Positions 30,689 to 38,075 of a stretch of 64,000 bases of DNA are shown one piece after another. Source of the DNA: an uncultured Tenacibaculum sp. (lineage in GTDB: Bacteria > Bacteroidota > Bacteroidia > Flavobacteriales > Flavobacteriaceae); NCBI RefSeq assembly GCF_947499065.1, contig NZ_CANMMT010000005.1, positions 1 through 64,000 on the forward strand, in the 5' to 3' direction. Under the pieces are notes generated by a model that was not told the DNA's origin, ran no database searches, and saw only the letters and a list, made by a program, of their open reading frames with translations. Each line of letters starts with the position of its first letter. Within the stretch, counting starts at the first letter, position 1. A program made the translations under genes and the position numbers.

Positions 30689-31234
30689 ATGAGTATTGTA
30701 AAGTTGACAAAGTATATTGTAATAATGATTATAGCTGCTTTTTTAACCTTCTTTTTTCATGAGATGAGTCACTGGATATCTTATGAATTACTTGGTTATA
30801 AAGCTGGTTTTACTCTTAATGGAGCTTCTCTTAAAGATTCATCTATTAAATTAACTAAAATGAATCGAATAATTACTAGTGGGGCAGGGCCCTTATTTAC
30901 CATTGTTCAGGGAGTTGTATTTTATTATATCTTAAAAAAGTATAAGAATATAATGTTATATCCTTTCCTCTTTTTACCATTTGTGATGAGGCTTGGTGCT
31001 ACTTGGGCTAATCAATTTCAACCAAACGATGAAGGAAGAATTAGTCTTGATTTAGGACTTAATTTATATGCTATTTCTATTATTGTTGTAGGTTTTCTTT
31101 TCTTTTTAGTAGTAAGAATTTCTAAGAAAAATAAGTTTTCCATAGTAGTAAATATTATTACATTTTTGGTGTCAATAATATTACTATTTGCTATAGCTTT
31201 TTTAGATTCTAAATATAAGTTTAGATTTATTTAG
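30689..31234 (+). CDS. M50-like membrane metallopeptidase
   Basis: The 181-residue protein is hydrophobic, with about five membrane spans. The first contains FFFHEMSHWIS, the zinc motif HExxH as in site-2 proteases; a SGAGPLFTI segment in the next span and NQFQPNDEGRISLDL further on are plausible partners (the GxGP loop and a zinc-binding Asp). It is shorter than typical M50 proteases and lacks PDZ domains. Substrate unknown. It stands alone on the plus strand and is convergent with the 98-residue gene 4 bases away. Confidence 0.72.
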   Translation: MSIVKLTKYIVIMIIAAFLTFFFHEMSHWISYELLGYKAGFTLNGASLKDSSIKLTKMNRIITSGAGPLFTIVQGVVFYYILKKYKNIMLYPFLFLPFVMRLGATWANQFQPNDEGRISLDLGLNLYAISIIVVGFLFFLVVRISKKNKFSIVVNIITFLVSIILLFAIAFLDSKYKFRFI

Positions 31235-33955: not shown

Positions 33956-34510
33956 ATGAATGTTCATAGTAACACTGATAATGAAATAAAACTGATAAAA
34001 GAATTGTTTTCTTCTTATCCTTTACAATCATTTTCTAAAAATGAAATTATTATTGAGACTTACTCAATATATAAGTCTGTTTTACTAATAGAAAAAGGTG
34101 CTATTCGGACTTTTTATTACGATTCTAAGGGTGATGATATAGCGCATTGGTTTTCATTTGAAAACGATATTGTAACAGTTCTTTCTAGTGCGTTAAATCA
34201 ATCTGTAAGTCCATATGGTTTACAAGCTTTAGAAGATGCTACTAGTGTTAGAGTAATTCAGTTTGATGATTTTATTAAACTTAAAGAAGCTTCTAGTGAA
34301 GTAACAGTAATTATAGAAAAATTGATTATTTCTACCCTTATTAAAGTCGCAAATCGTTTGGTGGATATTCAAACTAAAACTGCTAAAGAACGGTATGAGA
34401 ATCTCCTAAATGAACACCCAGCTATTTTTCAGCGTGTTAATTTGAATCACATTGCTACTTATCTTGGAATGAAAAGACAAAGCCTTAGCCGAATTAGAGC
34501 AGCTAAATAA
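33956..34510 (+). CDS. Crp/Fnr family transcriptional regulator
   Basis: The 184-residue protein has a cyclic-nucleotide-binding-like beta barrel (residues 20-110; SVLLIEKGAIRTFYYDSKGDDIAHWFSFENDIV) and a C-terminal winged helix (RVNLNHIATYLGMKRQSLSRIRAAK). It lacks the Arg/Ser phosphate-binding cassette of true CRP, so the ligand is unknown; the family is abundant in Bacteroidota. The GST operon begins 87 bases downstream, with a dyad and a -7 box between, so this regulator probably controls it. Confidence 0.88.
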   Translation: MNVHSNTDNEIKLIKELFSSYPLQSFSKNEIIIETYSIYKSVLLIEKGAIRTFYYDSKGDDIAHWFSFENDIVTVLSSALNQSVSPYGLQALEDATSVRVIQFDDFIKLKEASSEVTVIIEKLIISTLIKVANRLVDIQTKTAKERYENLLNEHPAIFQRVNLNHIATYLGMKRQSLSRIRAAK

Positions 34511-34522
34511 TTTTTTTCATTA

Positions 34523-34539
34523 TATGTGATTGTCACATA
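34523..34539. promoter_or_regulatory. Candidate Crp/Fnr-type operator upstream of the GST operon
   Basis: TATGTGA-TTG-TCACATA is a perfect 7-bp dyad. Half sites TGTGA/TCACA resemble CRP sites but the spacing is 3 instead of 6. Its centre lies about 50 bases upstream of the transcription start predicted from the TAGTTTTG box, a typical activator position. Confidence 0.6.
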
Positions 34540-34567
34540 GGTTAACTTTTTCAAAAAGAGTTTGCTC

Positions 34568-34575
34568 TAGTTTTG
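34568..34575 (+). promoter_or_regulatory. -7 element of the GST operon
   Basis: TAGTTTTG matches TAnnTTTG. No TTG box at the usual distance, which suits an activator-dependent promoter. Confidence 0.5.
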
Positions 34576-34596
34576 CACTATTCAAACAGTTTAATA

Positions 34597-35391
34597 ATGG
34601 CATTCGATATTTTGAAAAATAAAAAGATGGAAGAAATTAAAGGATTACATTTATTTCATCATCCTGCTTCAAATAATGCTTTAAGAGTAAGACTTTTATT
34701 AGAAGAAAAACAGATTCCTTGGCAAAGTCATATTGTTCACTTAAATAAATTTGAACAATTTTCTCCTGAGTTTTTAAGGTTAAATCCTCAAGGAAGTGTG
34801 CCTACTTTATTACATAATGGAACTCCCATTAATGGGAGTGAAAATATATTGAAATATTTAGAAGCCGTATTTTCTAAAAATAGTTTTACTCCTTTTCCTA
34901 CTAAAGAAACTGAAATGTGGGAATGGGTACAAGCATCAACACGAACTCATATTAGTTCTATTGTATATTATTTATATGCTCAAGGGTTTGGAAGACCTGC
35001 TAGAAAAGATAAACTTCATTTTTATAAAGAGTGTAATTATGAAAAGTATCGATTTTTAGTTGATAAAGGATATCATATGAGTCTTGAAGAAAAAGAAGAA
35101 GCTTTAATTATAAATGAATTACAGATGCAACGACTTGAAGACTCTTTAGAAGGACAAGATTATATTTTAGGAGATAAAATATCTGTAGCAGATATTGCTT
35201 GGGCACCCAATGTAATGTTTTTGCAATATCTAAACTTTGATTTTTCTAAATACCCTAAGGTTGTTAATTGGGTAGAAAAGATTAGACGGAGACCTTCATA
35301 TAATACTAAAAGTGATATGCCTAAATATATGACACCAATAGTAAAGTTTTACTTTAAGATGTTATTAATGAAAAAATCATATTTAAAATAA
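34597..35391 (+). CDS. Glutathione S-transferase family protein
   Basis: I start at the ATG at 34597 (MAFDILKNKK), since the predicted promoter leaves the ORF-track start untranscribed; the ATG at 34627 (MEEIKGLHLF) is also possible. The N-terminal thioredoxin fold (GLHLFHHPASNNALRVRLLLEE, LNPQGSVPTLLHNGTPINGSENILKYLE with cis-Pro and the SE pair that binds the glutathione glutamyl moiety) is followed by a helical C domain (EDSLEGQDYILGDKISVADIAWAP, about 170-225). Substrate unknown. It is first of a tight three-gene operon with gaps of 6 and 8 bases. Confidence 0.88.
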   Translation: MAFDILKNKKMEEIKGLHLFHHPASNNALRVRLLLEEKQIPWQSHIVHLNKFEQFSPEFLRLNPQGSVPTLLHNGTPINGSENILKYLEAVFSKNSFTPFPTKETEMWEWVQASTRTHISSIVYYLYAQGFGRPARKDKLHFYKECNYEKYRFLVDKGYHMSLEEKEEALIINELQMQRLEDSLEGQDYILGDKISVADIAWAPNVMFLQYLNFDFSKYPKVVNWVEKIRRRPSYNTKSDMPKYMTPIVKFYFKMLLMKKSYLK

Positions 35392-35397
35392 TTACGT

Positions 35398-35652
35398 ATG
35401 AAAAGAATATATAAAGTTTTGTCGAAAAACAATCCAAAACAAACTTTAGGAATTGGTTTGTTAGAAGATGAAACTACAACTAATTATTTACTTAAAAAGA
35501 ATGGGGAAATTCAACAGTATCTAAAGTCTGAAGTAGAACTTGAAGATATTTATGAAAAGGGGAGTGGTGAATATGAACTGGATATAGTAAATGAACAAAA
35601 CCAACCTATAAAATTGAAATTATCAAAACATTGTTTTGGTGGTTGTGGTTAA
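35398..35652 (+). CDS. Small protein ending in C-x-G-x-C-G (84 residues)
   Basis: The protein begins MKRIYKVLSKNNPKQTLGIG and ends IKLKLSKHCFGGCG. It is a soluble alpha/beta protein without signal peptide; its only two Cys are in the last five residues, in the order C-F-G-G-C-G at the very C terminus. The GST-like protein encoded 8 bases downstream ends in NCHGACG, the same C-x-G-x-C-G pattern after a similar beta strand (VHIHVPL). I recognise no family. The pairing of Cys and exposed terminal Gly suggests metal binding, a redox disulfide or a modification site, all unproved. Confidence 0.8.
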   Translation: MKRIYKVLSKNNPKQTLGIGLLEDETTTNYLLKKNGEIQQYLKSEVELEDIYEKGSGEYELDIVNEQNQPIKLKLSKHCFGGCG

Positions 35653-35660
35653 ATTAACAA

Positions 35661-36605
35661 ATGGAAAAAATAATTTTACATAGAAACTATGGCTCTCCTT
35701 ATTGCCAGAAAATAATAGCCATGCTTGGTTATTGTAAATTAGATTGGTTTTCTGAACTTACTAGTAAAGGTATGCCAAGACCTACTCAAGAGATATTGGC
35801 GGGAAATTATTCAAGAAGAGTTCCTATTTTGCAAATTGGCTCTGATATTTATTGTGATACTAAAGAGATTTGTCATCAAATAGCTGAAATTTCTGGAAAT
35901 AAAGTATTGAGTTATTATCATTTAACAGAAGAGCAACAAGTGTTTTCTGATCAATTAGAGTTTGAGTTTGGAAAAGCTGTTATGGGTTTGCTAAATCCTA
36001 TTGAAATAATTACTAGTTACTTTAAGCACATTCCTATAAAGGACGCTTACGAGTTTATTGTAGATAGACTTCAAGTTAAAAAAAGAACTAAGGGTAAAAA
36101 TCCATTAGAAGAGAAATCGAAAGATGAGTGGAAAAGTATTTTAATTTATTACTTGAAAATGATTGATGGGATTCTTGAAAATCATCAGTTCTTATCTGAA
36201 AACTCAGTTCCTAGTTATGTTGACCTTACTGCATATACTCATGTTTGGTATTCCTATAGATTGAATCACCTAAAGTATGCTAAAGGTCTACCTAATATTA
36301 AAAAGTGGTTAAAAAGAATGGACAGTTTTGATATTGGTAACTATAAGGAGTTAGCTAAAAATGAAGTTATTAATATTGCTTTAGCTTCTGAACCTAAATT
36401 AATAGACTCTTCCTTTTTAAACGCTACTAAATTAAATGAAGAAACTTCTGTTGTAGTTAATGATGAATTAGCTTTTATAATGAATCCTGTTAATGGAGTT
36501 TTAGTTGGTAAAGATTCTAAAAAAACAATTCTTGAAAGAAGACATTCAAAAATTGGTAAAGTTCACATTCATGTTCCTTTGAATTGCCACGGTGCTTGTG
36601 GATAA
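35661..36605 (+). CDS. GST-like protein with C-terminal extension ending in C-x-G-x-C-G
   Basis: Residues 1-80 are a thioredoxin/GST-N domain (IILHRNYGSPYCQKIIAMLGY, RRVPILQIGSDIYCDTKEICHQI) with a Cys at the catalytic helix start. Residues 90-245 are a helical GST-C-like domain (LENHQFLSENSVPSYVDLTAYTHVW). The remaining 70 residues are an extension not usual in GSTs, strand-rich (ELAFIMNPVNGVLVGKDSKK, GKVHIHVPLNCHGACG), ending like the 84-residue protein. The enzyme may act on, or together with, that partner. Third gene of the operon; 70 bases separate it from the AraC gene. Confidence 0.82.
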   Translation: MEKIILHRNYGSPYCQKIIAMLGYCKLDWFSELTSKGMPRPTQEILAGNYSRRVPILQIGSDIYCDTKEICHQIAEISGNKVLSYYHLTEEQQVFSDQLEFEFGKAVMGLLNPIEIITSYFKHIPIKDAYEFIVDRLQVKKRTKGKNPLEEKSKDEWKSILIYYLKMIDGILENHQFLSENSVPSYVDLTAYTHVWYSYRLNHLKYAKGLPNIKKWLKRMDSFDIGNYKELAKNEVINIALASEPKLIDSSFLNATKLNEETSVVVNDELAFIMNPVNGVLVGKDSKKTILERRHSKIGKVHIHVPLNCHGACG

Positions 36606-36675: not shown

Positions 36676-37056
36676 ATGAGTTTTTATAAAAAAGAGATAT
36701 TACGAATTAAAGCTGATTGTTATGCGAATCAATGGCAAATTGATACTGTTATTGGTTTGAGGAATTATATAAATAACAACTTTAAAGAAAATTTAAATCT
36801 TGATCTCTTTTCTCGTATTCGATTTGTTTCTAAATATCACCTTTTGCGTTTGTTTAAAAGATACTATGGACAAACTCCTAATCAATATTTGATTGATAGG
36901 AGGATTGAAATGTCTAAAGAATACATAAACAACGGTTTGTCGGTGTCTGATACTTGTTTTGAAGTTGGATTTGAAAGTCTAAGTTCTTTTAGTAATTTAT
37001 TTAAAAGAAAAACGGGGTTTTCTCCTAGTGCCTATCGAAAGCGCAATTTTCGATAA
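36676..37056 (+). CDS. AraC family regulator, DNA-binding domain only
   Basis: The 126-residue protein consists of little more than the two helix-turn-helix units: LDLFSRIRFVSKYHLLRLFKRYYGQTPNQYLIDRRIEMSKEYI and SVSDTCFEVGFESLSSFSNLFKRKTGFSPSAYRK. There is no sensor domain; the first 25 residues are short. Stand-alone AraC proteins of this type often lie next to VOC-family genes, as here. It probably regulates the neighbouring VOC genes. Confidence 0.9.
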   Translation: MSFYKKEILRIKADCYANQWQIDTVIGLRNYINNNFKENLNLDLFSRIRFVSKYHLLRLFKRYYGQTPNQYLIDRRIEMSKEYINNGLSVSDTCFEVGFESLSSFSNLFKRKTGFSPSAYRKRNFR

Positions 37057-37115: not shown

Positions 37116-37511
37116 ATGAAAATTAGAATTGTAAGTGTGCCTGTTCATGACCAAGAGAAAGCTCTTGTGTTTTATACTGAAAAACTAAATTTTGTTAAGA
37201 AAATTGATGTTCCAGTTGGTGGTGGTAATCGATGGTTAACATTAGTTTCTGGTGAGGAGCAAGATGGTCCTGAGTTGTTATTGGAGCCTGCTCCTAAAGA
37301 TTTTGAACCTGCTAAAGTTTATCAGAAAGCTCTTTTTGATGCTGGTATTCCTTATACGCAGTTTAATGTTGAGGATGTTGAAAAAGAATACAAGAGATTG
37401 GTTGATCTTGGTGTGGTTTTTAGTGTAAAGCCTACTGAAATGGGAACTGCGAAACTAGCTGTTTTTAATGATACCTGTGGTAATCATATTCAGATTGTTG
37501 AAATCTTATAA
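37116..37511 (+). CDS. VOC family (glyoxalase/dioxygenase-like) protein
   Basis: The 131-residue protein is a single VOC fold of two beta-alpha-beta-beta-beta units: KIRIVSVPVHDQEKALVFYTEKLNFVKK with the first metal His (VPVHDQ), RWLTLV, PELLLEPAP, then KLAVFNDTCGNHIQIVEI. It resembles uncharacterised glyoxalase-like proteins, commonly linked to resistance or detoxification. It lies 59 bases behind the AraC gene and 15 bases before the second VOC gene. Confidence 0.88.
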   Translation: MKIRIVSVPVHDQEKALVFYTEKLNFVKKIDVPVGGGNRWLTLVSGEEQDGPELLLEPAPKDFEPAKVYQKALFDAGIPYTQFNVEDVEKEYKRLVDLGVVFSVKPTEMGTAKLAVFNDTCGNHIQIVEIL

Positions 37512-37526
37512 GTTGTATTATTAGGT

Positions 37527-38075
37527 ATGAGAAAACTTATTGTATTTGTAATTCTTGGAGTTATTACTGTTTGCTGTAAAAACTTCAAGGCAGAAGGAAA
37601 CTTAAACAAAGAATTAAATCATTTAAAACAAGAAAGGGATAGTATGTTAGCTTTATTAAATCAAAACAAATCGAATGCTGAAAATGGAATTGCAAGTTTT
37701 TTGACTTTTCAAGATGGTAATGCAGAAGAAGCTATGAATTTTTATGTAGACTTATTTGAAAACTCAAAAATTGTTGATATTCAACATAATCAAAAAAATG
37801 AACCTGGTGCAGGTAAGGTAAAAGTAGGTCGATTTATATTGAACGGAAGCCTTTTCATGTGTAGTGATAGTTATATTAAACACGATTGGACTTTTACTCC
37901 GGGTGTTTCGTTATTTGTAGATCTTAAGTCTGAAGAAAGTATTGCTAGTACTTTTGAAAAACTCTCTGAAGGTGGCAAGGTTATGATGCCTTTAGATAAC
38001 TATGGATTTAGTAAAAAGTTTGCTTTTGTTGAAGATCGCTTTGGTGTTTCTTGGCAATTGAACCTAGCTGAATAA
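37527..38075 (+). CDS. Lipoprotein with PhnB-like VOC domain
   Basis: The 182-residue protein has a lipoprotein-type signal (MRKLIVFVILGVITVCC) with two adjacent Cys, a short coiled coil (LNKELNHLKQERDSMLALLNQN), and a PhnB/3-dmu-9-3-mt VOC domain from about residue 55 (IASFLTFQDGNAEEAMNFYVDLFENSKI, RFGVSWQLNLAE). PhnB-like proteins are normally cytoplasmic; an exported lipid-anchored version is unusual. It shares an operon with the preceding VOC gene. Confidence 0.82.
   Translation: MRKLIVFVILGVITVCCKNFKAEGNLNKELNHLKQERDSMLALLNQNKSNAENGIASFLTFQDGNAEEAMNFYVDLFENSKIVDIQHNQKNEPGAGKVKVGRFILNGSLFMCSDSYIKHDWTFTPGVSLFVDLKSEESIASTFEKLSEGGKVMMPLDNYGFSKKFAFVEDRFGVSWQLNLAE

Follow-up and report, generated by a model that had tools for sequence, protein, structure and literature searches.

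Organization of the locus

The window (the whole stretch of DNA analysed, 64,000 nucleotides long) carries three open reading frames that code for a GST, for a protein of 84 amino acids and for a GST-like protein. The first-pass annotation described them as an operon with gaps of 6 and 8 bases, and re-reading of the sequence gave the same frames and the same gaps, so that the operon is a tight one. A gene for a regulator lies directly upstream, and the region between it and the operon contains putative control elements. The features of the locus are the following:

33956 to 34510, plus strand: Crp/Fnr-family regulator gene, adjoining the operon in three of three genomes
34523 to 34539, no strand assigned: perfect palindrome TATGTGA-TTG-TCACATA, candidate operator
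34528 to 34545, plus strand: conserved block GATTGTCACATAGGTTAA (GATTTTCACATAGGTTAA in the uncultured Aquimarina), candidate regulator or promoter element
34568 to 34575, plus strand: TAGTTTTG, which fits the -7 motif TAnnTTTG
34597 to 35391, plus strand: upstream GST, 264 amino acids, lacking the C-terminal tag (Pfam GST_N_2, GST_C)
35398 to 35652, plus strand: predicted small beta-barrel protein, 84 amino acids, ending in CFGGCG
35632 to 35652, plus strand: codons of the CFGGCG tag and stop, residues invariant in the three-species alignment
35661 to 36605, plus strand: GST-like protein, 314 amino acids, 3ic8/4kf9 family, ending in CHGACG
36585 to 36605, plus strand: codons of the CHGACG tag and stop, residues invariant in the three-species alignment

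For the upstream GST we prefer the ATG at 34597, which agrees with the start of its counterpart in Aquimarina sp. Aq78. The assignment of the regulator comes from a Pfam cNMP_binding match (1.6e-5) that falls slightly short of the curated cut-off, and orthologues occupy the same position in Aquimarina sp. Aq78 (L002:2297-2848, 76% identity) and in an uncultured Aquimarina (L003:327-917, 51%). Position 34523, the left border of the stretch singled out by the first-pass annotation, is also the first base of the palindrome. What the other species conserve of this palindrome is its right half together with the bases that come after it, the left arm not being fully conserved. In all three species the interval from the regulator gene to the operon contains a block with the consensus GATT[GT]TCACATAGGTTAA, followed by TAnnTTTG, which we take to be the Bacteroidota -7 promoter motif. 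The block lies at L002:2863-2880 and L003:928-945 in the relatives, and in the window it overlaps the palindrome. The counterparts of the -7 motif in the other two genomes are TAACTTTG and TATCTTTG. We infer that the conserved block is the operator of the linked Crp/Fnr regulator.

Other genes were recorded around the cassette. Downstream in the window lie an AraC regulator (36676-37056) and two adjacent genes of the VOC superfamily (37116-38075; glyoxalase-like and 3-dmu-9_3-mt-like), none of which appears in the flanks listed for the Aquimarina cassettes. A membrane protein of 181 amino acids, encoded at 30689-31234, has no Pfam match but contains HEMSH, which by eye looks M50-like. In the uncultured Aquimarina an extra gene, also for a membrane protein (209 amino acids, HEWFH, metalloprotease-like by eye, likewise with no Pfam match), is inserted between the promoter and the GST (L003:991-1620). 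The cassette had no match to any anti-phage defence system in the PADLOC models.

A conserved C-terminal tail in two proteins of the cassette

The small protein ends in LSKHCFGGCG and the GST-like protein in PLNCHGACG, and in the small protein the two cysteines of the tail are the only ones, all as first noticed. Frequency relative to chance had been set beforehand as one refuting test for the tag, and the tag came out above it: a search of the genome of 4,013,313 bases (both strands, any frame) for TGYNNNGGNNNNTGYGGNTRR, the pattern of CxGxCG directly before a stop, gives exactly two matches, which are the ends of these two operon genes, while the reversed control pattern has no occurrence in the same genome and the chance of CxGxCG at a random C terminus is about 3e-7 given the amino-acid frequencies of the window. 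A spot check of other Bacteroidota returned about two CxGxCG-stop matches per genome, and among some 50 such loci six ended open frames of at least 40 codons, none of which resembles the cassette genes.

In the three sequences available for each protein (the window and the two Aquimarina), CFGGCG and CHGACG are invariant. The small protein has 25 invariant columns, and random placement of these would fill the last six positions with p of about 4e-4. Because the tails of the uncultured Aquimarina (LPKSCFGGCG in the small protein and IPKNCHGACG in the GST-like protein) match each other beyond CxGxCG, the shared element extends over about ten residues, [LI][SP]K-x-C-x-G-x-C-G, with the lysine replaced by leucine in the GST-like protein of the window. 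Homologues lacking the motif were indeed found, namely distant proteobacterial relatives of the GST-like protein; no member of the cassette lacks it. The view of the tag as a shared element is thus supported, the tag being selected, invariant in both proteins in all three species and borne by two genes that always occur together behind a GST gene. Neither the family databases nor a literature search for the motif yielded a family or a paper with this tag, in line with the first impression that no described family has it. The tail common to two proteins of this mobile GST cassette is therefore real, conserved and apparently undescribed.

Distribution of the cassette

An exact peptide-pattern scan over one genome per bacterial and archaeal species returned two close relatives, both Aquimarina (Aquimarina sp. 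Aq78 and an uncultured Aquimarina), with the gene order of the window: Crp/Fnr regulator, GST, small protein and GST-like protein. The suggestion that the two tagged genes co-occur beside a GST gene is borne out by three of three genomes. Profile and protein searches over 196 relatives, 168 same-genus, 400 family-level, 396 phylum-level and 69 Aquimarina-genus genomes, sets that overlap and in which the profile searches stayed within Bacteroidota, gave no further member of the GST-like or the small protein. In a set of 159 genomes, none of the others matched the upstream GST at 1e-15. Searches of viruses, plasmids and phages recovered neither the small protein nor other cassette members, and the tail is absent from all four of the plasmid-encoded GST-like relatives inspected.

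Between the window and Aq78 the cassette proteins are 71-76% identical and BshA 63%, whereas in the Aquimarina pair BshA reaches 70% and the Crp-like regulator, the GST and the small protein only 36-51%. The GST-like protein, 67-74% identical in all pairs, is on these identities the exception to the pattern and the most constrained part of the cassette. Because the identities of cassette and BshA are incongruent and the distribution is patchy, we consider that this rare cassette was apparently transferred horizontally as a unit.

The small protein and the GST-like protein

The ratios of non-synonymous to synonymous divergence between the window and Aq78 (dN 0.18 and dS 1.39 for the small gene; dN 0.15 and dS 1.37 for the GST-like gene) make both genes look real and constrained. 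For the small protein, identity to the other two species falls to 36-39% in the uncultured Aquimarina. We found no family match for the small protein in Pfam or NCBIfam and no convincing sequence match in the PDB. AlphaFold2 modelled it as a small barrel of seven strands (pLDDT 80, pTM 0.70) whose tail is disordered (pLDDT below 50 for residues 81-84). Its best Foldseek matches, of weak significance (E 0.05, TM about 0.5), were Sm/Hfq-like, and 3ic8 does not occur among the 50 matches listed; the predicted fold is a small beta barrel of the Sm/SH3 type. The first-pass annotation had proposed that the protein may be a free version of the extension of the GST-like protein. This is unsupported, since hhalign finds no relation between the two (probability 0.1 over 3 columns). 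Two sets of weak matches to the small protein were rejected as chance, their recurrence being due to orthology: proteins of about 470 amino acids in many relatives, which are phosphohexomutase-like orthologues (one sequence read), and proteins of about 530 amino acids, which represent a lipoprotein whose repeats are beta-helix-like.

The GST-like protein is a member of the GST superfamily (GST_N_3 8e-9 and GST_C 1.7e-4, both above the Pfam cut-offs) and matches PDB entries 3ic8 and 4kf9 with E 5.4e-22 over residues 1-306. The extension of about 70 residues that had been noticed is present, but it is not peculiar to the cassette: because the homology to 3ic8 and 4kf9, both tagless, spans it, the extension is old and family-wide. 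What is specific to the cassette is a set of cysteines. Cys15, Cys25, Cys71, Cys309 and Cys313 are present in the three cassette members and in none of the four aligned proteobacterial members, and in the PDB alignment, read to its end at residue 306, 3ic8 and 4kf9 lack those that fall within it. Five of the six conserved cysteines, both tail cysteines included, are thus cassette-specific and only Cys65 is family-wide, which argues that the cysteines of the active-site region and those of the tail go together. Cys15 lies within SPYC, at the position of the second cysteine of glutaredoxin CPYC, and by analogy with the canonical GST fold Cys15, Cys65 and Cys71 should be near the glutathione site. 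A structure prediction for the GST-like protein with the three sequences as input reached a pLDDT of 35. Its tail also has three histidines (His302, His304 and His310) conserved in the three species.

The upstream GST and the thiol background

The upstream GST is likewise a member of the GST superfamily (Pfam GST_N_2 6.4e-17, GST_C 2.4e-11). Aligned with delta-class GSTs it covers both domains and retains the catalytic-type serine, but in all three species Gly79-Ser80 stands in place of Glu-Ser, and the acidic residue of the Glu/Asp-Ser glutathione-binding motif is missing.

BshA is encoded in the three species, and for this reason the three hosts of the cassette are likely to make bacillithiol. 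Glutathione synthetase is encoded in the genome of the window and in the uncultured Aquimarina; Aq78 had no match to it, RimK only, so the cassette does not follow glutathione synthetase. In the window's genome the loci recorded for glutathione synthetase and BshA are C2:310866-311411 (L098) and C5:220768-221880 (L095) of G000, and to judge from these genes both low-molecular-weight thiol pathways may be present there.

A putative thiol relay

The reading that we prefer, with a probability of roughly 0.4, is that both tails are equivalent dithiol arms that dock in GST-fold sites. The cassette would then be a regulated, horizontally moving thiol-relay unit, in which the matching tails would make up flexible arms able to switch between dithiol and disulfide. 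On the small protein such an arm would act as a mobile, protein-borne thiol carrier and on the GST-like enzyme it would do the same job in cis, so that electrons (or sulfur or metal) would pass from one protein of the cassette to another. The proposal presumes that the cysteines are redox-active and that the tails dock in the GST domains, and the direction in which electrons would flow is likewise presumed. In its favour are the invariance of the tails in spite of the divergence of the small protein, whose tail cysteines are its only conserved ones, the cassette-specific cysteines of the GST-like protein, the predicted disorder of the tail on a well-predicted barrel, the likely use of bacillithiol together with the missing glutathione synthetase match in Aq78, and the precedents for mobile C-terminal cysteine arms in ribonucleotide reductase, PfTrxR and DsrC. 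Against it, CxxxC tails are equally suited to binding a metal or metalloid, and the conserved cassette has no thioredoxin, reductase or known redox partner.

We regard as rather unlikely a reading in which the tail would instead bind soft metals or metalloids (Cu(I), Zn(II), As(III) or Hg(II)). The small protein would then act as a metallochaperone or buffer, the GST-like protein would be a partner that shares its loading site, and the GSTs would handle thiol-metal adducts. This reading would account for two cysteines three residues apart and for the conserved histidines in the tail of the GST-like protein, and ArsD binds As(III) through three N-terminal cysteines (Cys12, Cys13 and Cys18; PMC4562236). 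However, the tail of the small protein has no conserved histidine (KHC in two of the three species and KSC in the other), genes for metal transporters or metal regulators are not conserved next to the cassette, and the linked regulator is Crp/Fnr-like. The fact that both tails finish in Cys-Gly has led us to consider whether the -Cys-Gly-COOH end mimics the Cys-Gly half of glutathione and offers a thiol substrate that the GSTs would conjugate to or remove from electrophiles, the tail being a glutathione surrogate borne by a protein. The Gly-Ser of the upstream GST fits this idea, as the lost acidic residue is the one that holds the gamma-glutamyl part, and so does the missing synthetase match in Aq78, but the other two genomes do encode glutathione synthetase and the first cysteine and central glycine of the tail would be left unexplained; we hold it to be improbable. 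It is distinctly doubtful, too, that the Cys-Gly tail of the small barrel would serve two dedicated GST-fold enzymes, one with its own fused copy, as their thiol co-substrate, with no small-molecule thiol involved.

The fold of DsrC differs from a small beta barrel, and no sulfurtransferase, DsrE-like or other sulfur gene was recognised in the conserved cassette. Both points weigh against a sulfur or persulfide carrier arm of the DsrC/TusE kind, with sulfane sulfur on the penultimate cysteine, and we give little credence to it even though Cys83 of the 84 residues of the small protein is penultimate and sits on a C-terminal arm that is disordered in the model; in DsrC the penultimate cysteine alone is persulfurated (PMC3397948). 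Least probable in our view is a recognition or modification site (a RiPP-like core or a C-terminal modification) with the small protein as the precursor. A small protein with a matching C-terminal tail does adjoin enzymes, and Cys/Gly-rich ends are common in modified peptides. Nevertheless, this reading is less favoured because no maturation enzyme is conserved beside the tag (no radical SAM, YcaO, MNIO/DUF692, ATP-grasp, protease or exporter was recognised in the conserved cassette or its neighbourhood); besides, the small protein is predicted as a folded barrel rather than a leader peptide, and the same type of tail is also found on an enzyme.

That an enzyme and a separately encoded small protein bear the same tail suggests a common docking site and a common chemistry. 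Should the tail prove to be a thiol arm, the cassette would represent a GST system whose thiol carrier is a protein, and would offer a direct test of whether GST-fold enzymes can use proteins and not low-molecular-weight thiols in probable bacillithiol makers. The cassette also opens a functional approach to the 3ic8/4kf9 GST-like family, which is uncharacterised.

Comparison with known systems

Among Sm/Hfq-like small beta barrels, which gave the best Foldseek matches, the small protein has no relation in sequence and no link to RNA, and we know of no such tail in Hfq. DsrC/TusE is a small protein whose flexible C-terminal arm bears a functional penultimate cysteine (PMC3397948); the cassette's small protein shares the penultimate cysteine but differs in predicted fold and in spacing and has no TusE/DsrC family match in NCBIfam. 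The upstream GST aligns over both domains with delta-class, YfcG (Nu) and LigF-type GSTs and departs from them in having Gly-Ser for Glu-Ser, a longer C terminus and a cassette with a tagged small protein. With the 3ic8/4kf9 family (uncharacterised structural-genomics entries of 310-330 amino acids) the GST-like protein shares Cys65 and the Asp-Thr/Ser at the glutathione site, whereas the proteobacterial members end in VHVHFPRxGF... (PRxG[FY]..., the divergence coming after VHxHFP) with no cysteine and the cassette members in CHGACG. We treat the latter as a variant branch of that family, which the C-terminal end is not shown to define. The closest parallels to the thiol relay are ribonucleotide reductase NrdA, with its mobile C-terminal Cys754/Cys759 arm (PMC11143221), and the Plasmodium thioredoxin reductase PfTrxR, with a Cys535/Cys540 arm (PMC8395237), which resemble the cassette in the pair of cysteines on a mobile C terminus beside an enzyme with active-site cysteines. 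The proteins are unrelated, and the tail of the cassette has three residues with a central glycine between its cysteines and is also borne by a separate small protein; by analogy, the cassette would work like these arms while being a member of neither family.
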